Position numbers and translations under genes: made by a program
Notes under the pieces: model-generated
The model's input: only the letters and a program-made list of their open reading frames with translations
What the model was told of the DNA's origin: nothing
Database searches by the model: none
Assembly (NCBI RefSeq): GCF_009193175.1
Contig: NZ_VUKE01000003.1
Span: 1-64,000 of the forward strand
DNA length: 64,000 bases
DNA from: Georgenia ruanii
GTDB lineage: Bacteria > Actinomycetota > Actinomycetes > Actinomycetales > Actinomycetaceae
Direction of reading: 5' to 3'
Shown here: positions 51,959-62,987 of the stretch, in pieces
Layout: every line of letters begins with the position of its first letter
How positions within the stretch are numbered: position 1 is the stretch's first letter

Positions 51959-53797
51959 GTGGTTGACAGCTCGACGCGGCACCGTGGCTCCATCGGGACC
52001 GTGGCACAGCAGGGCATCCCTGAGGAGGTCGACGTCGCCGTCGTCGGCTCCGGCGGGGCGGGGCTGATGGCGGCGCTCACCGCCGCCAAGCAGGGGGCGC
52101 GCGTGCTCGTCGTGGAGTCCCGGGAGATCGTCGGTGGCGCGACCGGGATCTCGGCGGGTGCCGCGTGGATCCCCGACCACGGCTTCTCCACCAAGCAGCT
52201 CAAGGTGCACGACGACCTGGACAAGGCTCGGCGCTACATGTACGGCCAGGGCCGGGACCAGACCCTCGACCACGACATCATCGAGGCCTTCCTCGAGACG
52301 GGGCCCCACGTCGCCCGCTACATCGAGGAGCACACCGCCTTCGGGTGGATCCCGGCGATCTGGCCGGACTACCGGTCCGACATCGACGGCGCGTCGATCG
52401 GGCGGGCGCTCTTCCCCGGCCCCTTCTCCCCCGAGCGGCTGGGGGAGGCCGCCAGGTTCGTGCGACCGGCCCTGACGACCGGCATGGCGAAGAACCCGCT
52501 CCCGTTCTGGATGCTCAACGGACTGAGCAGCGACGACGTGTGGATGGCCGGACCGGCGCTGGTCGGCGCCCTGCTCGACGCGGGGCTCCGCAACGGCGTC
52601 GACGTCCGGGTCGAGGCGCCCGCGGTCCGGCTCGTCACCGATGAGTCGGGGGTGCGCGGCGTCGTCGTCCAGGCCGACGGCGTGGAGCGGACGGTCCGTG
52701 CCACCAAGGGAGTCCTGCTCACCACCGGCGGCTTCGAGAGCTCGGACGAGCGTGCCACGACCCATCTCGGTGCGCCGTTCGGGGTGCAGGTCTCGCCCCA
52801 GGGCCACGAGGGCATCGCGGTCCAGCTGGGCGAGGAGATCGGTGCCGACCTCGCCGGGATGGAGGACGCGTGGTGGATGCCCGGGGTGCAGCTGCCCGGC
52901 GAGACGCTCGAGGGCCGTCCGCTCGCCCGGGTGTTCCTCGGTGAGCGTGCGCTGCCGCACAGCATCATGGTCAACCGCAAGGGCGAGCGCTTCGCGAACG
53001 AGGCGCTCGCGTACGACCAGTTCGGCGCGATCATGCGCGAGGTCGACCCGGAGACCGGCGAGATGCCGAACGCCGAGGCATGGCTCATCTTCGACCACAG
53101 CTACTGGACGAAGTTCGGGATCTTCGGCGTCACGCCAGGCGGAGAGGTGCCCGACTACCTCCACCGCGCCAGCACGCTGGCGGAGCTGGCGGGCCAGATC
53201 GGGGTCGACGAGGTCGCGCTGCTGCGCACCGTCGACCGGTTCAACCCCGAGGCCGCACGCGGCCGTGACCCGCAGTTCAACCGCGGTGGCACCCTCTTCG
53301 ACCGGTACTTCGGCGCGTTCTACCCCCGGCTGGGCAAGAACTCGCCCGACGCGCGATTCCCCGCCGCCACCGCCAAGGCGCGGACGGTGATCGCCAAGGC
53401 GATCGGGCCGGTCGTGAACAAGGCCGCGGCGGCCACGGCGAAGAAGGCCGACTTCGAGCGGCTGCGCTCCCTCGTCGTCGGGCCGCTCGCCGCGATCATG
53501 CGGCCCGTGCTGAAGAGCCCGCGGTCCAGCGTCCTCGGGCCGGTCGCCACCGCGCCCTACTACGCGCTCAAGGTCGAGGCCAGCGCGCTCGGCACCGTGG
53601 GCGGCCCGAGGACCGACGCCCGAGGGCACGTGCTCGACACCGAGGGGCAGGTCATCCCGGGCCTGTACTCCGCCGGCAACGCCGGCGGCGCACCGACGAA
53701 GGGGTTCTACGGGGGCGCCGGAGGGACGATCTCCCTCGGCCTCGTGTTCGGCTACCTCGCGGGCCAGGAGGCGGCCCGGCGGCAGGCGGGCGCCTGA
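51959..53797 (+). CDS. FAD-dependent dehydrogenase, 3-ketosteroid-Delta1-dehydrogenase-like
   Basis: 612 residues. FAD-binding motif VAVVGSGGAGLMAALTAAKQ, then ESREIVGGATGISAGAAWIP, VLLTTGGFESSDE and the C-terminal VIPGLYSAGNAGGAPTKGFY with GGAGGTISLGLVFGYLAG. This is the fumarate reductase/KstD/KsdD flavoprotein family; the GFYGGAGGTI ending is common in KstD-like enzymes. It probably desaturates a ring ketone or a related substrate. GTG51959 has GAGGAGGA six bases upstream. No other steroid genes are present, so the physiological substrate is open. A hairpin follows the stop. Confidence 0.87.
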   Translation: MVDSSTRHRGSIGTVAQQGIPEEVDVAVVGSGGAGLMAALTAAKQGARVLVVESREIVGGATGISAGAAWIPDHGFSTKQLKVHDDLDKARRYMYGQGRDQTLDHDIIEAFLETGPHVARYIEEHTAFGWIPAIWPDYRSDIDGASIGRALFPGPFSPERLGEAARFVRPALTTGMAKNPLPFWMLNGLSSDDVWMAGPALVGALLDAGLRNGVDVRVEAPAVRLVTDESGVRGVVVQADGVERTVRATKGVLLTTGGFESSDERATTHLGAPFGVQVSPQGHEGIAVQLGEEIGADLAGMEDAWWMPGVQLPGETLEGRPLARVFLGERALPHSIMVNRKGERFANEALAYDQFGAIMREVDPETGEMPNAEAWLIFDHSYWTKFGIFGVTPGGEVPDYLHRASTLAELAGQIGVDEVALLRTVDRFNPEAARGRDPQFNRGGTLFDRYFGAFYPRLGKNSPDARFPAATAKARTVIAKAIGPVVNKAAAATAKKADFERLRSLVVGPLAAIMRPVLKSPRSSVLGPVATAPYYALKVEASALGTVGGPRTDARGHVLDTEGQVIPGLYSAGNAGGAPTKGFYGGAGGTISLGLVFGYLAGQEAARRQAGA

Positions 53798-53817
53798 GCC
53801 CGGCTCGTTGCCGACCT

Positions 53818-53843
53818 CGACCGCCGTCGCAGCACGGCGGTCG
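53818..53843 (+). terminator. Hairpin terminator after the FAD-dehydrogenase gene
   Basis: Perfect 10-bp stem CGACCGCCGT (53818-53827) / ACGGCGGTCG (53834-53843) with a 6-base loop, 20 bases past the stop codon. Confidence 0.75.
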
Positions 53844-54016
53844 GGGTCGCCCCGGCAACGGCAGCCGTCGTGGCGGGTGCTGACGGTGCCGACCGCGACG
53901 TCGGATGAACCGTCGACCCCGCGACGCCACCGGTGCCTCCCGCGCGCACCGGACGGACGAGGTCAGCACGGAAGCGTCGGCGAGGCGTGTGACGGAGGTC
54001 CCACACACTGGCTCAA

Positions 54017-54067
54017 CCACTACATATGGTGGTGGTGTCAGCAGAAGCACCCCACATCTTGTGGTGA
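54017..54067 (+). promoter_or_regulatory. Tandem NrdR-box-like operators of nrdJ
   Basis: CCACTACATATGGTGG at 54017-54032 and CCACATCTTGTGGTG near 54052-54066 both resemble the NrdR box (ACAC-N8-GTGT type palindromes found in pairs before ribonucleotide reductase genes). The centres lie about 33-35 bp apart, close to three helical turns. The nrdR gene itself is not in this window. Confidence 0.5.
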
Positions 54068-54141
54068 CACGGCGTCAGAACAGGCGGACAATGGGAACGA
54101 AGACGCCCATTTCGGGTCCTGGGCGACGCGAAGGAGACGAC

Positions 54142-56958
54142 ATGTCCGTGACCCCCGCCCCCAAGGGATCGGCCCGCACCTCCCGCCGGAGGGGCCTGAC
54201 GATCCCGCGCGTGTTCTCGACGGCCGGCACGCACCCGTACGACCAGGTCGCGTGGGAGCGCCGGGACATCGTCCAGACCAACTGGAAGACCGGCGAGACG
54301 ATCTTCGAGCAGCACGGCACCGAGTTCCCCGCGTCCTGGTCGGTCAACGCCTCGACCATCGTGGCGACGAAGTACTTCCGCGGCGCCGTCGGCTCCCCCG
54401 AGCGCGAGCACAGCCTGCGCCAGATCATCGACCGCGTCGTCGGCGCCTACACCGCCGCCGGCCGCGAGCACGGCTACTTCGCCACCGCCGACGACGCCGC
54501 CGTCTTCGCCGACGAGCTCGCCTGGCTGCTGCTGCACCAGGTCTTCGCGTTCAACTCGCCGGTGTGGTTCAACGTCGGCACGCCCGCGCCCCAGCAGGTC
54601 AGCGCCTGCTTCATCCTCTCCGTCGACGACACCATGGAGTCGATCCTCAACTGGTACCGCGAGGAGGGGATGATCTTCAAGGGCGGCTCCGGGGCCGGCC
54701 TGAACCTCTCGCGCATCCGCTCCTCCAGGGAGCTGCTCTCCTCCGGCGGCAACGCCTCCGGCCCGGTCTCGTTCATGCGCGGGGCGGACGCCTCGGCCGG
54801 CACCATCAAGTCCGGCGGCGCCACCCGGCGCGCGGCGAAGATGGTCGTCCTCGACGTCGACCACCCCGACATCGAGGAGTTCGTCGAGACCAAGGCGCGC
54901 GAGGAGGACAAGATCCGCGCGCTGCGGGCGGCCGGGTTCGACATGGACCTCGGGGGCCGGGACATCACCTCGGTGCAGTACCAGAACGCCAACAACTCCG
55001 TGCGCGTGTCCGACGAGTTCATGCGCGCCGTCGAGACCGGCGGCACGTTCGACCTCCGGGCCCGCCAGGACGGCCACGTCGTCGAGACCGTCGACGCCAG
55101 GGCGCTGTTCCGCACGATCGCCCAGGCCGCCTGGGAGTGCGCCGACCCCGGCCTCCAGTACGACGACACCATCAACGCCTGGCACACCTCGCCCGAGGCG
55201 GGCCGCATCACCGCCTCCAACCCGTGCAGCGAGTACATGCACCTGGACAACTCCTCGTGCAACCTCTCCTCGATCAACCTCCTGACGTTCCTGCGCGAGG
55301 ACGACACCTTCGACGTCGAGCGGTTCACCGCCGCCGTCGAGCTGATCATCACCGCGATGGACATCTCCATCGGCTTCGCCGACTTCCCCACCGACGCCAT
55401 CGCCGCGACCACCCGCGCCTACCGCCAGCTCGGCCTCGGCTACGCCAACCTCGGCGCCCTCCTCATGGCCACCGGCCACGGCTACGACTCCGACGGCGGG
55501 CGCGCCCTCGCCGCCGCGATCACCTCGCTCATGACGGCGGCGGCGTACCGCCGCTCCGCCGAGCTCGCCGCGGCCCTGGGCCCCTACGACGGGTACGCCC
55601 GCGACGCCGCCGCCCACCAGCGGGTGGTCCGCAAGCACGCCGCCGCCAACGACGACCTGCGCACGGTCAACGCCATGGACGCCGCCGTCCACGACGCCGC
55701 CACCGCCGAGTGGCAGCGCGGGCTGCGGCTGGGCGGCGAGGCCGGCTGGCGCAACGCCCAGGTCTCCCTGCTCGCCCCCACCGGGACCATCGGCTTCATG
55801 ATGGACTGCGACACCACCGGCATCGAGCCCGACTTCTCGCTGGTGAAGTTCAAGAAGCTCGTCGGCGGCGGGTCGCTGCAGATCGTCAACCAGACGGTGC
55901 CCCGCGCCCTGCGCCGCCTGGGCTACCCGGCGGAGACGGTCGAGGCGATCGTCGAGCACGTCGCCGGCCACGGCCACGTCGTCGACGCCCCCGGCCTGCG
56001 GCCCGAGCACTACGAAGTCTTCGACACCGCCATGGGCCGGCGCGCGATCGCGCCGATGGGTCACGTGACGATGATGGCCGCCGTCCAGCCGTTCCTCTCC
56101 GGCGCCATCTCCAAGACCGTCAACCTCCCCGAGGCCGCCACCGTGGAGGACATCGAGCGGGTCTACTTCGACGGCTGGAAGCTCGGCCTCAAGGCCCTGG
56201 CGGTCTACCGCGACAACTGCAAGGTGGGCCAGCCGCTCTCCCACGGCAAGGCGACGACGGCGGAGACGGTCGCCGAGCCGGGGCCCGGCGAGCCGCCGCG
56301 CGCCGTGCGCCGCCGGCTGCCCAAGTCCCGGCCCTCCGTGACGACCTCGTTCCGGGTCGGCGGGGCCGAGGGGTACATGACGGCCGGGTCCTACCCCGAC
56401 GACGGCCTCGGCGAGGTCTTCCTCAAGCTCGGCAAGCAGGGCTCGACCCTGGCCGGGGTCATGGACGCCTTCTCCATCGCCGTCTCGATCGGCCTGCAGC
56501 ACGGCGTGCCGCTGGAGGTGTTCGTCCAGAAGTTCACCAACCTGCGCTTCGAGCCGGCCGGCATGACGGACGACCCGGACATCCGGATGGCGCAGTCGAT
56601 CGTCGACTACATCTTCCGCCGCCTCGCCCTGGACTACCTGCCCTACGAGACCCGGGCGAGCATGAACGTCCACACCACCGCCGAGCGCAAGCGCTACGCC
56701 GAGACCGGCTCCTACGCCGAGACCGGCTCCTACGAGGAGGCCGCCGAGGACGTCGCGGCGGAGCTGGAGACCTTCAACCAGACCGCCGGGGACGAGCCGC
56801 GGCTGCCGTCGCGGGCGCACTCGACCGCCGAGCTGCTCGAGCTGCAGCAGGGCCACGCGGCCGACGCGCCGCTGTGCCTGGCGTGCGGGACGAAGATGCG
56901 CCCCGCGGGCAGCTGCTACGTGTGCGAGAACTGCGGGTCGACGTCGGGCTGCAGCTGA
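54142..56958 (+). CDS. nrdJ: Adenosylcobalamin-dependent ribonucleoside-diphosphate reductase
   Basis: Class II ribonucleotide reductase of 938 residues, which makes deoxyribonucleotides without oxygen using adenosylcobalamin. Catalytic residues fit the T. maritima pattern: Cys156 in QVSACFILSVDD, thiyl Cys362 in NPCSE and Cys373 in NSSCNLSS (same 11-residue spacing), plus ANNSVRVSDEFM and LLAPTGTIGFMMDCD. The C-terminal tail has redox/zinc cysteines (CLACGTKM and CYVCENCGSTSGCS). A seven-residue-type duplication YAETGSYAETGS lies near residue 853. ATG54142 has AAGGAG five bases upstream. Probably controlled by NrdR. It depends on the cobalamin import and adenosylation genes just upstream. 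Confidence 0.96.
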   Translation: MSVTPAPKGSARTSRRRGLTIPRVFSTAGTHPYDQVAWERRDIVQTNWKTGETIFEQHGTEFPASWSVNASTIVATKYFRGAVGSPEREHSLRQIIDRVVGAYTAAGREHGYFATADDAAVFADELAWLLLHQVFAFNSPVWFNVGTPAPQQVSACFILSVDDTMESILNWYREEGMIFKGGSGAGLNLSRIRSSRELLSSGGNASGPVSFMRGADASAGTIKSGGATRRAAKMVVLDVDHPDIEEFVETKAREEDKIRALRAAGFDMDLGGRDITSVQYQNANNSVRVSDEFMRAVETGGTFDLRARQDGHVVETVDARALFRTIAQAAWECADPGLQYDDTINAWHTSPEAGRITASNPCSEYMHLDNSSCNLSSINLLTFLREDDTFDVERFTAAVELIITAMDISIGFADFPTDAIAATTRAYRQLGLGYANLGALLMATGHGYDSDGGRALAAAITSLMTAAAYRRSAELAAALGPYDGYARDAAAHQRVVRKHAAANDDLRTVNAMDAAVHDAATAEWQRGLRLGGEAGWRNAQVSLLAPTGTIGFMMDCDTTGIEPDFSLVKFKKLVGGGSLQIVNQTVPRALRRLGYPAETVEAIVEHVAGHGHVVDAPGLRPEHYEVFDTAMGRRAIAPMGHVTMMAAVQPFLSGAISKTVNLPEAATVEDIERVYFDGWKLGLKALAVYRDNCKVGQPLSHGKATTAETVAEPGPGEPPRAVRRRLPKSRPSVTTSFRVGGAEGYMTAGSYPDDGLGEVFLKLGKQGSTLAGVMDAFSIAVSIGLQHGVPLEVFVQKFTNLRFEPAGMTDDPDIRMAQSIVDYIFRRLALDYLPYETRASMNVHTTAERKRYAETGSYAETGSYEEAAEDVAAELETFNQTAGDEPRLPSRAHSTAELLELQQGHAADAPLCLACGTKMRPAGSCYVCENCGSTSGCS

Positions 56959-57072
56959 CCCGCCCCGCGACCAGGATGCCCTGCTGGCCGCAGCCGGATC
57001 GGCACCCTGGCCGCGGCCGGAACGGCGTTCGGGCTGCCGCCACGCTGGCACGGTCGTCGCTGACGGGCCGGC

Positions 57073-57112
57073 ACCTGACAGGTCGGTCAGGTTTATCAGG
57101 TTGCCCCCAGGT
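57073..57112. repeat. Cluster of CAGGT elements before the His-rich gene
   Basis: ACCTG-A-CAGGT forms a perfect palindrome at 57073-57083. CAGGT then recurs at 57079, 57088 and 57097 (exact 9-bp steps) and again at 57108. CCTGAC (57074-57079) and GTCAGG (57086-57091) also form an inverted repeat. Located 84-123 bp upstream of the small secreted protein start; a regulator-binding region is likely. Confidence 0.5.
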
Positions 57113-57195
57113 CTTCACAGCGTGCTTCCAGTAACCGCTCGCAGCGTGAGGATCGCCAGAAGCAGTACCCGAAGCAGATCAGTGAGGGATCTGAT

Positions 57196-57435
57196 ATGCG
57201 TCGCAAGATTCTCAGTGCGCTGGCAGCGGTGATCCTCGGTGGGACCATCCTCGGTGGCGCGGGCACCGCCTTCGCCTCGACCACGGCCACCGGGCCGTAC
57301 GGGGGCACCCACCACAACGTGCGTCACCACGTCAGGCACGTCCGGCACCACGCCCGGCAACACGCCCGGCACGTGCGGCACAATGTCCGGCACCACGTGC
57401 GGCACGTCCGGCACCACACGATGCACCGCATGTAG
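57196..57435 (+). CDS. Small secreted histidine/arginine-rich protein
   Basis: 79 residues. Signal peptide 1-27 with cleavage after AFA (MRRKILSALAAVILGGTILG then GAGTAFA). The mature 52 residues contain 16 His and 10 Arg and no Asp or Glu. They are built of HHVRHVR-type units; the 13-residue block HNVRHHVRHVRHH occurs twice (residues 40-52 and 62-74). I know no named family with this pattern. Metal binding (Zn, Cu, Ni), an acid-switched cationic peptide, or wall/polyanion binding are possible; all are inference. ATG57196 has GAGGGA six bases upstream. It stands alone, with its own upstream repeat cluster and a strong terminator downstream. Confidence 0.85.
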   Translation: MRRKILSALAAVILGGTILGGAGTAFASTTATGPYGGTHHNVRHHVRHVRHHARQHARHVRHNVRHHVRHVRHHTMHRM

Positions 57436-57532
57436 CGAGGGCACGCACAGGGCGCACCCGGCCGGTCAGCGTCGACCGCCGCGACGGCTGCCGGGCCGGC
57501 ACCGCCACCACCGGGTGACGGACCAGCGCAAC

Positions 57533-57562
57533 GAGGGCGGCCGGGGACTCCCGGCCGCCCTC
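57533..57562. terminator. Strong bidirectional hairpin terminator
   Basis: Perfect 13-bp stem GAGGGCGGCCGGG (57533-57545) / CCCGGCCGCCCTC (57550-57562), loop GACT. It lies between the convergent His/Arg-rich and PIG-L genes, 98 and 20 bases from their stops. Confidence 0.85.
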
Positions 57563-57581
57563 CGCCGCGTCCGGGCGGCCA

Positions 57582-58475
57582 TCAGCCCGGGACGGCGGCG
57601 GTGTGCAGGTACGACGTCAGGTGCCGGTCCGAGGTCAGCATCGCGAAGGACCAGGGCGTGCTGCGGTATCCGATCGCGTCGAGCCCGGCCGCGGGGTCGG
57701 CGCGCGCGTACGCAGCCGCGGCGGCGCGCACCGCCCGGACGTCGGCGCGCGTCAGCGCCTGGAAGCGCCGCAGGTCCCGCCGCGGGATCACGAGCCTCTC
57801 GAACGGCCGCACCCAGAACAGCGCGTCGTGGACGAGCCCCGCGTCGGCCAGGTCCTTCAGGACCCGCCCGTTCGCGCGGTGCAGGACGTTGGGATCGGCG
57901 GCGTAGGAGTGCGCCACATGGGTCACCGACCGCCCGGCCCGCGCCTCGGTCCGCTCCAGATCCAGCGCCGTCGCCCGCATCTCGGCGAGGTTGTCGGCCG
58001 GGCCGGGGCTGAGGTCGGGGAGGACGACGACGTGACCGGCCTCGACGCCGAGGGCGCGCATGGCGGCGCGGAACTCCTCGACGCGCCGCGCCCCGATCTC
58101 CGCGATCGTCATCCCGGCGAGGGACGGACCCGGCCAGAGCGCTCCCACCCCGCGACCCTCCGAGACGAGGACGACGTAGACGTTCCCGGGACCCTTCTGG
58201 GCCAGGGCCGCGCGGATGGCGCTGCCGCCGAGGAGGACCTCGTCGTCGGGGTGCTCGGGGTAGAAGACGACGACGTCGCCGGCGAAGCGGGGGTTCTCGG
58301 CCAGGGGCGGGTCGCTCAGGACGGCGGGCACGACGAGCGCCAGGACGGCGATCGCCGCGAGGGCGCGCACCACGCGACCGCCCAGGGCGCCTCCCGACCC
58401 GGGCCGGGACAGGCCCCAGACGTCGCCCGGCGGGCCGGAGCGGTGGGGCCGGGTCGCCGGTGCCGCGCGCACCAC
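57582..58475 (-). CDS. Membrane-anchored PIG-L family deacetylase
   Basis: 297 residues. An N-terminal hydrophobic helix (VVRALAAIAVLALVVPAVL) suggests a signal anchor or signal peptide. The catalytic zinc motif is YPEHPDDEVLLGGSAI (His-Pro-Asp-Asp-Glu) and the second zinc histidine is in VTHVAHSYAADPNV. PIG-L enzymes remove acetyl groups from N-acetylglucosamine-type sugars. An extracytoplasmic position would point to a cell-surface glycan rather than mycothiol synthesis. GTG58475 is chosen; a second GTG is adjacent and another sits just before the hydrophobic helix. Divergent from the esterase operon. Confidence 0.87.
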   Translation of the reverse strand: MVRAAPATRPHRSGPPGDVWGLSRPGSGGALGGRVVRALAAIAVLALVVPAVLSDPPLAENPRFAGDVVVFYPEHPDDEVLLGGSAIRAALAQKGPGNVYVVLVSEGRGVGALWPGPSLAGMTIAEIGARRVEEFRAAMRALGVEAGHVVVLPDLSPGPADNLAEMRATALDLERTEARAGRSVTHVAHSYAADPNVLHRANGRVLKDLADAGLVHDALFWVRPFERLVIPRRDLRRFQALTRADVRAVRAAAAAYARADPAAGLDAIGYRSTPWSFAMLTSDRHLTSYLHTAAVPG

Positions 58476-58622
58476 GTCAGCGCCCCCCGCGTCGGCACGG
58501 CGGGGCCGAGGGCTGGTGACACCGGAGGGTCACAGGGACAAGGATGGACCTCAGCACCCGTGGAGCGGGAGCCCTCAGCCCGCGCTCAGGTGCGTCCCAG
58601 GTCCGTGTGACTCAATGGAGAG

Positions 58623-59765
58623 ATGCGAGTGGGACTCACGCCGTCGAGCGCGGTCGCACCGCACGAGCTGCTGGCCCGCCTCGCACACCAGCACGGGCTC
58701 CTGACCTCGCCGCTGGTCGGCACCGCCCTGGCCGTGGTCGGTGCGGTGCTGGCGCTGCTGCTCCTGCGCCGGGTGCGCCGCGCGGGCGGGCCCGCCGGCA
58801 TGGGCCGGGGCCGCTTCGTCTTCCGCACGGTGTCCGTCCTGGGCGTGGTCGCGCTGGCCACCGGTGCCTACGTCAACGCCTACTCCGGATACTTCCCCAC
58901 CCCCGGCGCGCTGGCGCAGGCGGCCGGGCTCTCCGGGGTCGCCGCCGCCGGGCCGGGCGGTCCGACGCCCACCGCGGACCCCGGCCAGCTCACCACCGTC
59001 CGCGTCGCCGCCCCCGCCCTGGGCGTCACCGACGGCACGACGTACGTCTACACGCCCGCCGGCTACGCGACCTCGCCCACCCGCCATTACCCGGTCATCT
59101 ACCTCATCCCGGGCTCGCCGGGCACGCCGAGCGACTGGTTCCGGACCGGGCGGGTGGACCAGGTCATGGAGTCGCTCGTGCAGGCCCATGCCATGCCGCC
59201 CGCGATCGTCGTGGCGATGAACACCTGCGGCGGGATCACCGGCGACACCGAGAGCCTCGACGTCGTCCGCGGCCCGCAGGTCGAGAGCTACTACACCCGC
59301 GTGGTCCTGCCCTACGTCGACGCGCACTACCGGACCCTTCCCGACCGGGCTCACCGGGTCATCGGCGGGATGTCCTCGGGCGGCTTCGCCGCGCTCAACG
59401 TCGGGCTGCACCACCTCGACCTGTACGGGACCATCCTCGGGTTCGAGCCCTACGGCGACCCCGGGCCGGCCAACCTGCGGCACCTGCTCGGCGGCGACGT
59501 CGCCCGGTTCCGGGCCAACTCGCCGCGCCACTACATCCCCACGATGGCCTTTCCCGAGCCCGTCGGCGTCTTCCTCGACGTCGGCGCCGACACCGGGCAC
59601 GACGTGGCCCGCGTGCGGACCCTGGCCGCCGAGCTGACCGCCCGGGGCCAGCAGGTGCAGCTGCGGGTCGAGCCGGGCCAGCACCACACCTGGACCGAGA
59701 CGGTCGCCGGCCTGCCGTACGCGCTGGCCTTCGCCGGCTCCCGCCTCTCCGGCGCGCCCGGGTGA
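58623..59765 (+). CDS. Membrane-anchored alpha/beta-hydrolase esterase
   Basis: 380 residues. Two hydrophobic segments near the N-terminus (LVGTALAVVGAVLALLLL and TVSVLGVVALATGAYVNAY) hold an extracytoplasmic esterase-D-type domain. Nucleophile elbow GMSSGG (Ser251), catalytic His in GQHHTWTE, N-terminal strand VYTPAGYATSPTRHYPVIYL. It resembles actinobacterial putative esterases next to MprF-like genes. ATG58623 has GGAG just upstream. Its stop overlaps the DUF2156 gene (GTGA). Possible role: hydrolase of aminoacylated lipids made by the next gene product, by analogy with known synthase/hydrolase pairs. Confidence 0.85.
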   Translation: MRVGLTPSSAVAPHELLARLAHQHGLLTSPLVGTALAVVGAVLALLLLRRVRRAGGPAGMGRGRFVFRTVSVLGVVALATGAYVNAYSGYFPTPGALAQAAGLSGVAAAGPGGPTPTADPGQLTTVRVAAPALGVTDGTTYVYTPAGYATSPTRHYPVIYLIPGSPGTPSDWFRTGRVDQVMESLVQAHAMPPAIVVAMNTCGGITGDTESLDVVRGPQVESYYTRVVLPYVDAHYRTLPDRAHRVIGGMSSGGFAALNVGLHHLDLYGTILGFEPYGDPGPANLRHLLGGDVARFRANSPRHYIPTMAFPEPVGVFLDVGADTGHDVARVRTLAAELTARGQQVQLRVEPGQHHTWTETVAGLPYALAFAGSRLSGAPG

Positions 59766-61483
59766 CGGCGGTCGAGACCCGCCCACGCGCGGCCGCCGGC
59801 CGGGCAGCCGCGTGGGCGCGTCGGGACCACGCGCGCCGGTGGGCGGCGTACGTGGCGGCGGGCCTCGGCGTCATCGGCCTGTTCTCGGCCCTGTCGCGGC
59901 CGCTGCGCGGCCGGGTGCGGGTGCTGCTGGAGGTCATGCCGATCGTCGTCCCGCGGACGGCGGTGCTCACCCTCGTGTTCGTCTCCGTCGCCCTGGTCCT
60001 CACCGCCCGCGGCCTGCGCCGCGGGCACCGGCTCGCCTGGGTGGCGGCCGAGGGCCTCATGGTGGCCTCGGTGGTGCTGCACCTCACCAAGGGCCTCGAC
60101 ATCGAGGAGGCGCTCCTCGCCGCGGCCGGCGCCGCGTGGCTGGCCACCCAGCACCGCGCCTTCCCGGTGCTGCCCACCCGGGTCGCCGCCAGCCGGGCTG
60201 CGGTCGCGGGCATCGGTGGCCTCGTGGTCGTGGTGGGCATGTCCCTGGCCGTCGCCGTCCAGGCCCGCCGCGGCGGCGTGCGGGAGCTGAACGACCTCGC
60301 CGGCGTCGTCATCCGCGACCTCACCGGACAGAACCAGACGGTGGCGGTGCTGCACGGGCACTTCCACGGCCCGGTGCTCGCCGCCGCAGGGGTGGCGCTG
60401 CTGGCCAGCGTGGCCTGGCTGCTGCTCAGCCCCCGGCAGCCGGAGCCGCTGGTGGGGGAGGCGCACCGGCGCGAGCGGGAGCGGGCCCGCACGCTCGTGG
60501 CCCGCTACGGCGGGGGGAGCCTCGACTTCTTCGCCCTGCGCGACGACAAACAGTGGTTCTTCACCGGACGCAGCGTGGTGGCTCACGCCGTGCGCGGCAC
60601 GGTGTGCCTCGTCTCGCCGGACCCCATCGGGCCGACGGTGGAACGTGAGGACGTCTGGGCCGAGTTCATGGCCTACGCGGAGAGCTGCGGCTGGTCCGTC
60701 GCGGTGGTGGGCGCCGCGCAGGACTGGCTGCCGCTCTACGAGGCCAGCGGGCTGCGCAGCGTCTACCTCGGGGACGAGGGCGTGGTGGACTGCCAGGCGT
60801 TCACCCTGAGCGGGCACGAGATGCAGAGCGTGCGCCGGGCGCACCGGCGCGTGGGCGCCGCCGGCTACACCGCCACCTTCCACGACCCGGCCGGGCTCGA
60901 CGAGGCCACCCGGCGGGCCCTGCTCGCCCTGTCCGAGGAGGGCCGGCGCGGCGGGGAGGAGCGCGGCTTCTCCATGACGCTGTCCCGGCTCTTCGACCCG
61001 GCCGACGCCGGGGTGCTGGTCGCGGTGGCCCACGACCCCGCGGGCCGCCCGGCGGCGTTCATCCAGTGGGTGCCGGCCCCGCGGCTGCCCGGCTGGTCGC
61101 TCGACGTCATGCGCCGCGGCACCGGCCAGATGCCCAACGGCGTGATGGACTTCCTCATCGTCGAGACGATCCGGCACGTGCGCGAGGTCGGCGGGAAGGC
61201 GCTGGGCCTGAACTTCGCCGTGTGGCGCCGTATCGTCGCCGGCGAGCACGACGCCTCGGCCGGCGGGCGGCTGGCCCGCCGGGTGCTGCGGCGCGCCTCG
61301 GCCAGCGCCCAGATCGAGTCGTTGTGGCGGTTCAACGCCAAGTACGGCCCGCGCTGGGTGCCGCGCTACGCCGCGGTCGGCACCGTGGACCTCCTGGCCT
61401 CGCAGGGCGTGGCCATCGCCGGCGCCGAGGGCGTGACCGACGTGCCGGTGATCGGGCGCCTCGTCGGCCGGAGCGGGCCGTGA
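59762..61483 (+). CDS. DUF2156 protein, MprF/LysX-like aminoacyl-lipid synthase candidate
   Basis: 573 residues. The N-terminal part has about six membrane helices; the C-terminal ~300 residues form a DUF2156 (double GNAT-like) domain as in phosphatidylglycerol lysyl/alanyltransferases. Motifs: GSLDFFALRDDKQWFFT, SPDPIGP, DEGVVDCQAFTLSG, MQSVRRAHRRV, DFLIVETIRHVREVG, LNFAVWRR and the C-terminal LWRFNAKYGPRWVPRY. These enzymes move an amino acid from aminoacyl-tRNA to a membrane lipid, lowering surface negative charge. Shorter than full MprF (~840 residues) because fewer flippase helices are present. GTG59762 overlaps the esterase stop; the stop overlaps the next gene. Confidence 0.87.
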   Translation: MTAVETRPRAAAGRAAAWARRDHARRWAAYVAAGLGVIGLFSALSRPLRGRVRVLLEVMPIVVPRTAVLTLVFVSVALVLTARGLRRGHRLAWVAAEGLMVASVVLHLTKGLDIEEALLAAAGAAWLATQHRAFPVLPTRVAASRAAVAGIGGLVVVVGMSLAVAVQARRGGVRELNDLAGVVIRDLTGQNQTVAVLHGHFHGPVLAAAGVALLASVAWLLLSPRQPEPLVGEAHRRERERARTLVARYGGGSLDFFALRDDKQWFFTGRSVVAHAVRGTVCLVSPDPIGPTVEREDVWAEFMAYAESCGWSVAVVGAAQDWLPLYEASGLRSVYLGDEGVVDCQAFTLSGHEMQSVRRAHRRVGAAGYTATFHDPAGLDEATRRALLALSEEGRRGGEERGFSMTLSRLFDPADAGVLVAVAHDPAGRPAAFIQWVPAPRLPGWSLDVMRRGTGQMPNGVMDFLIVETIRHVREVGGKALGLNFAVWRRIVAGEHDASAGGRLARRVLRRASASAQIESLWRFNAKYGPRWVPRYAAVGTVDLLASQGVAIAGAEGVTDVPVIGRLVGRSGP

Positions 61484-62331
61484 CGCTCGCGCTGCTCGCC
61501 GCGCTGGCCGGCACCGTCGGGTACGGCGCCGGCTCGGTGCTCCAGGCCGCCGCCACCTCCCGCGCCAGCGGGCCGGCCGCCCTGCGCCACCCGCTGTACC
61601 TCGCCGGCCTGGGATGCGACCTGGTCGCGTGGCTGGCCTCCCTCGTGGCGCTGCGCCACCTGCCGCTCTTCGCCGTCCAGGCCCTGCTCGCCGGCTCCCT
61701 GGCGGTCACCGCCGTGCTGGGGCGGGTGTTCCTCGACGCCCGGCTGCGGCGCCGTGACATCGCCGCGATCGCGGTGGTCACCCTCGCGCTGGTGGCCGTC
61801 GCCGCCTCCGCCGGCGAGCAGGCGCCCCACCGCCCGCCGGCCCCGTTCACCGCCGCGATGCTCGGCGCGCTCGCGCTGTGCGCGCTGGCCCTGCTGGCGC
61901 TGTACCCCCGCGGCCGGTCGGCGGCGCTCGCGGTGGTGGCCGGGGCGGCGTTCTCCGGCGCGGCGCTGAGCGCTCGAGCGGTGCGCGCGCCGGGGCCGGG
62001 CACGCCGGGCACCCGGGTGGTGGTGGGCCTGCTCGCCGACCCGCTGCTCTGGGTGATCCCGGTGTTCGGGCTGGTCGGGCTGCTGGCCTACGCCCGTTCG
62101 CTCGAGCGCGGCGCCGTCGGGCCCGCCACGGCCGTGATGTGGACGGTCGAGGTGGTCGTGCCGGCCGTCGTCGGGGTCGCGCTGCTCGGCGACGCCGTCC
62201 GGCCGGGCTGGGCGGGGGTGGCTGCGGCGGCGGTGCTGCTCGCCGTGGCGGGGTGCGCCGTCCTGGCGCTGGGCCCGGCCGACGCACCGCACCCCTCCAC
62301 GGGCGCGGCAACGGGGAGGGGGCTGTCATGA
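61480..62331 (+). CDS. Multi-pass membrane protein (DMT/EamA-like)
   Basis: 283 residues with eight to ten hydrophobic helices. The first, LALLAALAGTVGYGAGSVLQ AA-type, and the conserved LPLFAVQALLAGSLAVTAVL resemble drug/metabolite-type DMT transporters in actinobacteria; the match is loose. GTG61480 overlaps the DUF2156 stop (GTGA), so it is part of the same operon. A flippase or export role for the modified lipid is conceivable but unsupported. Confidence 0.7.
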   Translation: MTLALLAALAGTVGYGAGSVLQAAATSRASGPAALRHPLYLAGLGCDLVAWLASLVALRHLPLFAVQALLAGSLAVTAVLGRVFLDARLRRRDIAAIAVVTLALVAVAASAGEQAPHRPPAPFTAAMLGALALCALALLALYPRGRSAALAVVAGAAFSGAALSARAVRAPGPGTPGTRVVVGLLADPLLWVIPVFGLVGLLAYARSLERGAVGPATAVMWTVEVVVPAVVGVALLGDAVRPGWAGVAAAAVLLAVAGCAVLALGPADAPHPSTGAATGRGLS

Positions 62332-62987
62332 CGCCCGACCGGCGCGGCGCGAACGCGCAGCTGGGCCCGACCGCCGCGACCCGGCTGGTGGTCGCCGCGG
62401 TGCTCGGGGCGGCGAGCGGCGTCGCCGCCGGCACCGTCGTCGACTGGCCGATCGGGCTGCTGCTCGGCTGGATCGTCGCCGCGGGCGTCTACGTCGGCTG
62501 GATGTGGATCACGATCGGGCACATGGACGGCGCCGCCACGGCCGCCCACGCCGCCCGCGAGGACCCGGGCCGCCGCCCGGTGCACCTCATCGTCAACGGC
62601 GCGGCGCTGGTGAGCCTCGGCGCCGTGGCGCTGCTGCTCGTGGGCCGCTCGGGCGGGGCCGCCGCCGAGGTGGGGCGGGCCCTGCTGAGCGTCGCGAGCG
62701 TGGCGCTGGCGTGGGCGACCGTCCACACCGCGTTCACCGCCCGCTACGCGCACCTGTACTACACCAGCACCGCCCCGGTCGTGGACTTCGGCGCCGTCAC
62801 GCACCCGTCCTACACGGACTTCGCCTACCTCGCCTTCACCGTCGGCATGACCTTCCAGGTCAGCGACACCCAGCTGAAGACCACCGACATGCGCCGCGCC
62901 GTGCTCGAGCACGCCCTCTTCTCCTACCTGATCGGCGTGGTCGCCATCGCCGCGACCGTCAACCTCCTCGCCGGCCTGAAGGGCTGA
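62328..62987 (+). CDS. DUF1345 family membrane protein
   Basis: 219 residues with about five membrane helices. The DUF1345 signature is very clear: HPSYTDFAYLAFTVGMTFQV followed by SDTQLKTTDMRRAVLEHALF, ending FSYLIGVVAIAATVNLLAGL. The function of the family is unknown. ATG62328 overlaps the previous stop (ATGA), making it the fourth gene of the envelope operon. Convergent with the glycosyltransferase-like gene. Confidence 0.88.
   Translation: MTPDRRGANAQLGPTAATRLVVAAVLGAASGVAAGTVVDWPIGLLLGWIVAAGVYVGWMWITIGHMDGAATAAHAAREDPGRRPVHLIVNGAALVSLGAVALLLVGRSGGAAAEVGRALLSVASVALAWATVHTAFTARYAHLYYTSTAPVVDFGAVTHPSYTDFAYLAFTVGMTFQVSDTQLKTTDMRRAVLEHALFSYLIGVVAIAATVNLLAGLKG

Follow-up and report, generated by a model that had tools for sequence, protein, structure and literature searches.

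The small open reading frame at 57196-57435 of the Georgenia ruanii sequence raises the question of whether a micro-protein made of a His/Arg repeat is the product of a real gene and, if so, what switches the gene on and what the peptide does outside the cell. The whole stretch of DNA analysed, 64,000 nucleotides, is referred to below as the window. The reading preferred here is that the gene is a member of a two-component regulon, that its product is exported and that it serves as a metal and proton sponge at the wall. The probability of this whole statement is estimated at roughly 0.4, and its parts are graded where their evidence is given.

The reading frame, its peptide and its neighbours

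The frame encodes 79 amino acids on the forward strand and contains no internal stop. The features of the locus are the following.

53905-56958, forward: presumed ribonucleotide reductase gene, the upstream neighbour
57077-57120, forward: TCAGG-type direct-repeat box, a putative OmpR/PhoB-type response regulator site, with the elements GACAGG (57077-57082), GTCAGG (57086-57091), ATCAGG (57095-57100), CCCAGG (57106-57111) and TTCACAG (57114-57120)
57184-57189, forward: Shine-Dalgarno-like GAGGGA 5' of the ATG, read from the sequence
57196-57435, forward: gene for the His/Arg repeat peptide, probably secreted; orthologue L006/L008 in Georgenia thermotolerans
57196-57276, forward: signal peptide MRRKILSALAAVILGGTILGGAGTAFA, the part common to the whole family (alignments A1 and A2)
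57319-57417, forward: three 11-residue repeats, VRHHVRHVRHH, ARQHARHVRHN and VRHHVRHVRHH (residues 42-74)
57533-57562, no strand assigned: terminator-like hairpin with a perfect 13-bp stem, between two convergent genes
57582-58475, reverse: PIG-L deacetylase-like gene, the convergent neighbour (PF02585, E 2.4e-6; 28.5 bits, cut-off 28.2)

Translation and counting confirmed the original description of a signal peptide and a mature part of 52 residues, in which there are 16 His, 10 Arg and neither Asp nor Glu; the cleavage position between AFA and ST was assigned by eye. The frame contains the His-richest 40-residue stretch in the window, with 16 His; the runner-up among 298 six-frame ORFs of at least 60 amino acids has 9. 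GC at codon position 3, read in frame, is 0.89. An antisense ORF of 109 amino acids overlaps the small gene on the reverse strand.

A block of 13 residues occurring twice had also been described. The block, HNVRHHVRHVRHH, is present in exactly two copies, at residues 40-52 and 62-74 of the 79, but the region is better seen as three units of 11 residues at 42-52, 53-63 and 64-74, with which DNA spacings of 33 nt agree. In the 11-residue frame Val or Ala occupies residues 42, 46, 49, 53, 57, 60, 64, 68 and 71 and Arg residues 43, 47, 50, 54, 58, 61, 65, 69 and 72, with His between them in a ladder of i, i+3/i+4 spacing. The hydrophobic moment has its maximum at 98 degrees, a height reached by none of 5000 shuffles. 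AlphaFold2 gave, from the single sequence and with no metal, a helix at 39-77 with a block pLDDT of 91-96 across residues 41-70, the mean pLDDT of the five models being 63-79. The repeat region 42-74 is predicted to be an amphipathic helix with stripes of Val/Ala, Arg and His. The net charge of the peptide is +10 and comes from Arg alone.

Conservation of the frame was found in the nearest relative, G. thermotolerans (G002), where the orthologue lies at the same position between nrdJ and the PIG-L gene. Frame, start, signal peptide, H/R tail and promoter are all kept, and the two proteins are 66-69% identical depending on the alignment. At the DNA level the two loci are 85% identical in the box (57066-57125), 79% from the box to the ATG, 89% in the signal-peptide codons and 65% in the mature codons; the outer spacers reach 45% (just upstream of the box) and 15%. 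Codons 1-41 differ by 8 non-synonymous and 4 synonymous changes and show no purifying signal. The mature part of the orthologue, with 19 His in 50 residues, retains the composition and a unit of the form hydrophobic-R/K-H-H. The precise amphipathic helix is not conserved, because the orthologue lacks the 11-residue period: its moment peaks at 80 degrees and 3841 of 5000 shuffles reach its value at 90-110 degrees. Eight Georgenia genomes have an nrdJ match, and the small gene lies 3' of nrdJ in two of them, the source genome and G. thermotolerans; in the other six no such ORF was found within 1.2-1.5 kb downstream of nrdJ.

The upstream neighbour at 53905-56958 presumably encodes the B12-dependent ribonucleotide reductase NrdJ. 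This protein has a tandem YAETGSYAETGSY duplication (window about 56698-56735) that is not present in the G. thermotolerans protein. On the other side, where a strong terminator had been described, the hairpin exists, and the 61-nt stretch that holds it (57520-57580) has a folding energy of -43.5 kcal/mol (z -3.1), which 3 of 200 shuffles equalled. A consensus scan of 56900-57700 for T-tract terminators scored none, since the hairpin has no T tract. The hairpin is probably a two-way terminator common to the small gene and the convergent PIG-L gene. A sigma-70 consensus scan of 56900-57700 gave no site, and no Rfam family matched at gathering level in 53000-60000. Further downstream a phosphatidylglycerol lysyltransferase-like gene (PF09924) lies 2.3 kb from the small gene. 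The cluster within 57582-62987 comprises this kind of gene (lysyl-phosphatidylglycerol synthase-like), a DMT-like membrane protein with no Pfam match and a DUF1345 protein. No metal-efflux gene was found among the neighbours looked at, and no exporter or immunity gene was recognised in the five downstream neighbours scanned.

The first reading knew of no named family for the peptide, and none was found to fit. Its sole Pfam match is YkpC at E 0.19, with no acid-shock profile among the matches, and its best NCBIfam score is 17.3 bits where the cut-off is 518. A PDB sequence search returned no chain at E up to 10, and Foldseek with the peptide model returned no match. In the excerpts of the literature that were retrieved no description was found of a His-rich Georgenia protein, of similar His-rich secreted proteins from actinobacteria or Streptomyces, or of TTCAGG repeats together with response regulators. 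A real gene with its own promoter region and a probably secreted H/R-repeat product is supported by these observations; the gene is almost certainly real and, judging from the sequence, its peptide is very likely exported.

The repeat box and the linked two-component system

The question of what controls the gene leads to a paralogue elsewhere in the source genome (G000). This paralogue, L002 (C14:59767-59973; 31% His, E 1.1e-6 in a single-sequence search), is followed by a gene for an OmpR/PhoB-type response regulator (PF00072 and PF00486) and then by one for a histidine kinase; HAMP, HisKA and HATPase domains were found on the G003 relative of the linked kinase. A weaker paralogue, L003 (C30:79279), has 5 His in 60 residues (8%). 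The regulator was searched for in 9 genomes of the genus, 297 of the order and 186 of one other family, with the best 9-15 candidates scored per genome in the last two sets. A secreted low-complexity gene lies directly upstream of the regulator gene in all nine orthologues found at 66% identity or more, namely those of G000, G002, G008 (C11 and C36), G001 and G003 and, in another family, G262, G506 and G586. The partners in the source genome and in G. thermotolerans are His-rich, with 31% and 49% His. In G005 the regulator (59%) lacks an upstream secreted gene of this kind, but TCAGG repeats are found in front of the regulator gene, and beside the kinase gene lies one for a PepSY-like protein (45.6 bits, cut-off 60). 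Regulators at 53-59% identity, at 29 loci of the order, showed no charged partner under a weak filter that also missed L101, two of the loci having no regulator placed. Regulator paralogues at 45-56% in G008 (L079 and L080) and G007 (L077) stand outside the partner count.

The repeat cluster that had been described upstream of the gene exists, at 57077-57120; no other three-box TCAGG site on either strand of the 64 kb scores as well. In the promoters of the linked partners three half-sites of the form CAG(G/C) follow one another at intervals of about 10-11 nt; typical are GACAGG, GTTCAGG and TTCAGG, and the sites of L131 and L132 were identified by eye. Such repeats are found in 9 of 11 Georgenia family promoters, including those of the window gene and its orthologue. 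The L016 promoter has no box and that of L009, which is regulator-linked, only a partial set. The strict pattern TCAGGN5TTCAGGN7CAG, with one mismatch allowed, has sites in six of nine Georgenia genomes and none in the source genome or G002, and the reversed control also gave matches. The looser pattern TCAGGN{4,6}TCAGG gave 23 sites in the source genome against 13 for its reversed control. Three of the 23 end 59, 60 and 95 nt 5' of the ATG of three family members, and most of the 23 look like chance.

A matrix was built from eight of the nine regulator-linked promoters (L009 omitted), with hand-picked half-sites; the window gene and its orthologue were kept out of it, as were L003 and L062. 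It is a cleaner test because the spacer range of the loose pattern had been set after the window and L003 promoters were seen, although the matrix spacer range of 9-11 was itself known beforehand to fit. The site at 57077 ranked first of 127,938 positions with 25.8 bits, the next separate site scoring 20.2. Since a matrix from linked promoters ranks the window promoter first, the window gene probably belongs to the regulon. The half-sites of the window box are spaced 9-9-11 nt against 10-11 nt in the linked ones. Assignment to one regulator is weakened because similar triple boxes precede lipoprotein-like ORFs in G006 (L021), G003 (L024) and G008 (L028); the L021 ORF, the one scanned, is DUF2807. 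From these sequences the box type is probably common to related or sister regulators. The source genome has three boxed genes, the window gene and two others with the same signal peptide and boxes. An independently controlled gene standing alone, as originally proposed, is therefore not what was found: signal peptide and boxes are common to two more genes of the source genome and to relatives, and co-control is the likelier state. It is quite probable that the C14 two-component system controls the window gene as an unlinked part of its regulon.

The signal sensed by this system was approached through profiles and models. Among NCBIfam profiles the heavy-metal kinase TIGR01386 scores best, though below cut-off, for both linked kinases that were scanned (G003 and G008 C11). 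The source-genome regulator scores 177 bits with the PhoB profile against 174 with the heavy-metal profile, both below cut-off. Seven sensor domains, from kinases that are linked or related, contain no Cys and have 1-3 His. A sensor model from a seven-sequence alignment (pLDDT 75) leaves the signal unnamed, since its Foldseek matches to KinD, WalK and PAS are weak (best E 2.7e-3). The solved regulator nearest by sequence to the linked one is named PhoP, which we take to be the mycobacterial protein. M. tuberculosis PhoP is likewise described as binding direct repeats, namely DR1/DR2 and, farther off, DR3 (PMC3413638).

Several neighbours of the linked loci were recorded. In G008 C11 a galactose-oxidase-like protein (L083:1735-3429) precedes the secreted partner and the two-component system, a catalase is found at that place in G000 (L002:1895-3169), and a Fur-type regulator and, by translation, a catalase lie near the linked locus in G002 (L082:742-1245). 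A peroxide link of these loci is possible. On the G008 contig C36 (L086) a lysyl-phosphatidylglycerol synthase-like cluster, similar to that in the window, adjoins the secreted partner and the two-component system.

The secreted family and its variable tails

The window peptide has the signal peptide common to the secreted partner family. It matches profile A1 at E 5.7e-24, being itself a row of A1. In nine genomes of the genus the profile gave nine matches at E <1e-10, in four genomes (three in G000, two in G002, three in G008, one in G001); eight of these are rows of A1 or the same locus under another handle, and only L062 is new. The profile is weak or blind for other members: the G003 member scored E 0.27 and the poly-His partner L072 of G002 was missed, both having been found via the regulator. 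A pattern search of a genome collection of 84,980 species returned two loci, one in G. thermotolerans and one in Paenibacillus tritici (residues 6-33 only). Eight of 99 related genomes matched at E 0.01 or better. Four of the eight lie outside the genus (G024, G036, G070 and G089; E 8e-5 to 8e-3), and a crude His filter found no short His-rich ORF in them. With profile A2 one of 396 genomes of the order matched, the source genome itself, when at most the best 10 candidates were scored per genome. Similarity searches clearly miss tails of different composition, and the acidic partners surfaced via the regulator alone.

The signal peptide, or N-terminal helix, is the well-conserved part of the family, and an A-x-A cleavage site is present by eye in 11 of 11 members. 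The mature tails hardly align. They include poly-His (49% His, in G. thermotolerans), D/K/H/R repeats, E/R/N repeats and Pro/Ala-rich chains, and three different tails are possible within one genome. Net charge, counted over R, K, D and E in 11 members, runs from +10 to -10. The partners in G262 (L101), G506 (L131) and G586 (L132) are acidic, with 2, 3 and 3 His, and their genes are preceded by a TCAGG box of the same type. Two of these three, L131 and L132, are plainly built of repeats such as SPDTxASAEKAGTESGVxDGPGGHADxxG and terminate in VDHQFEGNE or VDHQFDGQE. In two other partners (L010:1210-1713 and L075:2371-2934) a module with two Cys (CWxVxFYR..GxW.V.W.D.DG, then the second Cys in CDR) stands before the D/K/H/R repeats; it matches no Pfam family.

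Possible roles of the peptide

In the mechanism that we infer, for regulator binding, signal, secretion and metal or proton binding alike, a signal at the envelope, be it metal, acid or oxidative stress, would activate the PhoB/OmpR-type system on contig C14, and the response regulator would bind the TCAGG repeats at 57077-57111 and switch the small gene on. The pre-peptide would be exported by Sec and cut after AFA. At neutral pH the His of the 52-residue H/R chain would be mostly neutral and the chain cationic, with up to 16 more charges in acid. The peptide would stay near the anionic wall, its His ladder soaking up protons and soft or transition metals like a sponge, and would probably fold into a helix upon binding. 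It would act like SilE/PcoE or Asr and be unrelated to either.

From sequence comparison these appear to be its closest working analogues, with membership in neither group found. SilE is described as a disordered His/Met sponge that becomes helical on metal, encoded in the sil cluster with silRS, and SilE/PcoE resemble the window peptide in being small and His-rich, with helix potential, and in their export and tie to a two-component system, both of which are probable for the window peptide (PMC5008109). Searches against Pfam and NCBIfam profiles and PDB sequences gave no family above cut-off and no chain that would indicate homology. The silver motifs MxxHx6HxxM and HxxMx3HxxM, as given in the same paper (PMC5008109), occur in none of 11 family members. 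The window peptide differs from SilE/PcoE in its 10 Arg, its actinobacterial host and, within the neighbourhood inspected, the lack of efflux genes. As to a tie to a metal two-component system, the paralogues adjoin the regulator, the window gene has the box, and the metal profile of the kinase stays below cut-off. Asr is a basic, low-complexity protein, and RstA is an OmpR-type regulator. As is proposed for the window peptide, Asr of E. coli, which is under RstAB control, is described as a small exported protein switched by a promoter box (PMC11135836). The difference is that the window peptide matches no Pfam acid-shock family. The 11-mer helices of LEA proteins are amphipathic. A repeat of 11 residues, as in the window peptide, is a feature of group 3 LEA proteins (PMC12871917) and of other helices built in this way. 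The window peptide differs in its signal peptide, the absence of acidic mature residues, the presence of three repeats only and the loss of the period in the orthologue. The family looks like a new one that works like a known kind.

The His content, the ladders, the His-rich linked paralogues, the heavy-metal-type kinase profile (below cut-off), the catalase and galactose-oxidase-like neighbours and the SilE and Asr precedents point toward the sponge. Acidic and His-poor members, the absent SilE motifs, Cys-free sensors, a regulator profile no nearer to the heavy-metal type than to PhoB and the lack of efflux genes among the neighbours seen point against it. Metal capture is a plausible role for this one peptide, but with tails that span poly-His, H/R and acidic chains it cannot be what the family as a whole does. 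From its composition, metal or proton binding is tentatively taken as the role of the peptide, at somewhat below even odds.

The same conserved N-terminal helix, the only well conserved part, could be read otherwise: the secreted protein or its signal-peptide helix may bind the sensor kinase and damp or tune it. The tail would then be free to vary, the work falling to the conserved N-terminal part, and the partner gene does directly precede the regulator gene in all nine close orthologues found. CpxP acts in this way on CpxA. MgrB, a small product of its regulon that inhibits PhoQ, is a further precedent (PMC8404706, PMC10576120) and is, as the window peptide probably is too, tied to its own two-component system (PMC8404706). 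The window peptide differs from MgrB in its cleavable (predicted) signal peptide and long charged tail. The A-x-A site in every member, judged by eye, suggests removal of the helix; in addition the window gene is not linked to the system, an elaborate H/R repeat would be superfluous for feedback and one genome can hold three different tails. Feedback on the kinase is considered rather unlikely.

A somewhat lower chance is given to a polycation that coats or cross-links anionic wall polymers through its H/R helix and alters surface charge, the polyelectrolyte differing by lineage. The charge of +10 from Arg alone would suit it, as would the PF09924 lysyltransferase-like gene 2.3 kb away and the similar cluster beside the G008 C36 system, G008 being the one genome compared; with charges of +10 to -10 in 11 members, a polycation is not the property that the family has in common. 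Histatins and other His-rich cationic peptides share the His/Arg composition, and a pH-switched antimicrobial or membrane-active peptide of that type would fit the amphipathic H/R/V helix, the absence of acidic residues and the signal peptide, the nearby lysyltransferase-like gene offering possible self-protection. The window peptide is unlike histatins in being bacterial and repeat-built, and most family members are not cationic. This role is improbable, given an orthologue without the helical period, zwitterionic or acidic relatives under the same box and no exporter or immunity gene recognised in five downstream neighbours. A dispensable low-complexity tail drifting behind a conserved promoter and signal peptide, its repeat without selected function, would explain tails that hardly align, a gene 3' of nrdJ in only two of eight nrdJ-bearing Georgenia genomes and the missing purifying signal over 41 codons, but it too is a poor candidate, with the H/R composition and the phi-R/K-H-H unit persisting in the orthologue, a GC of 0.89 at codon position 3 in frame and a strongly conserved promoter.

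The sponge reading may be part of a wider pattern, put forward at fairly low odds, in which box and signal peptide are fixed and the mature chain is a fast-changing polyelectrolyte, an ion-exchange resin of the wall of which the H/R peptide would be the metal- and proton-binding grade, unrelated to described families. Among Gram-negatives, SilE and Asr are known cases of a single small exported protein of low complexity under the control of a two-component system. If the pattern is true, one two-component system of a bacterial order tunes an exported polyelectrolyte that may be poly-His, an H/R helix, D/K/H repeats or acidic S/G/E repeats. One regulator lineage would keep the box and the signal peptide while the chemistry of the exported chain changes almost completely between species. 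If confirmed, this would provide a natural series for the role of such chains outside the cell, be it metal, proton buffering, wall charge or kinase contact, and a solitary His/Arg micro-protein would become one product of a regulon that is open to test and has a candidate binding site already defined.
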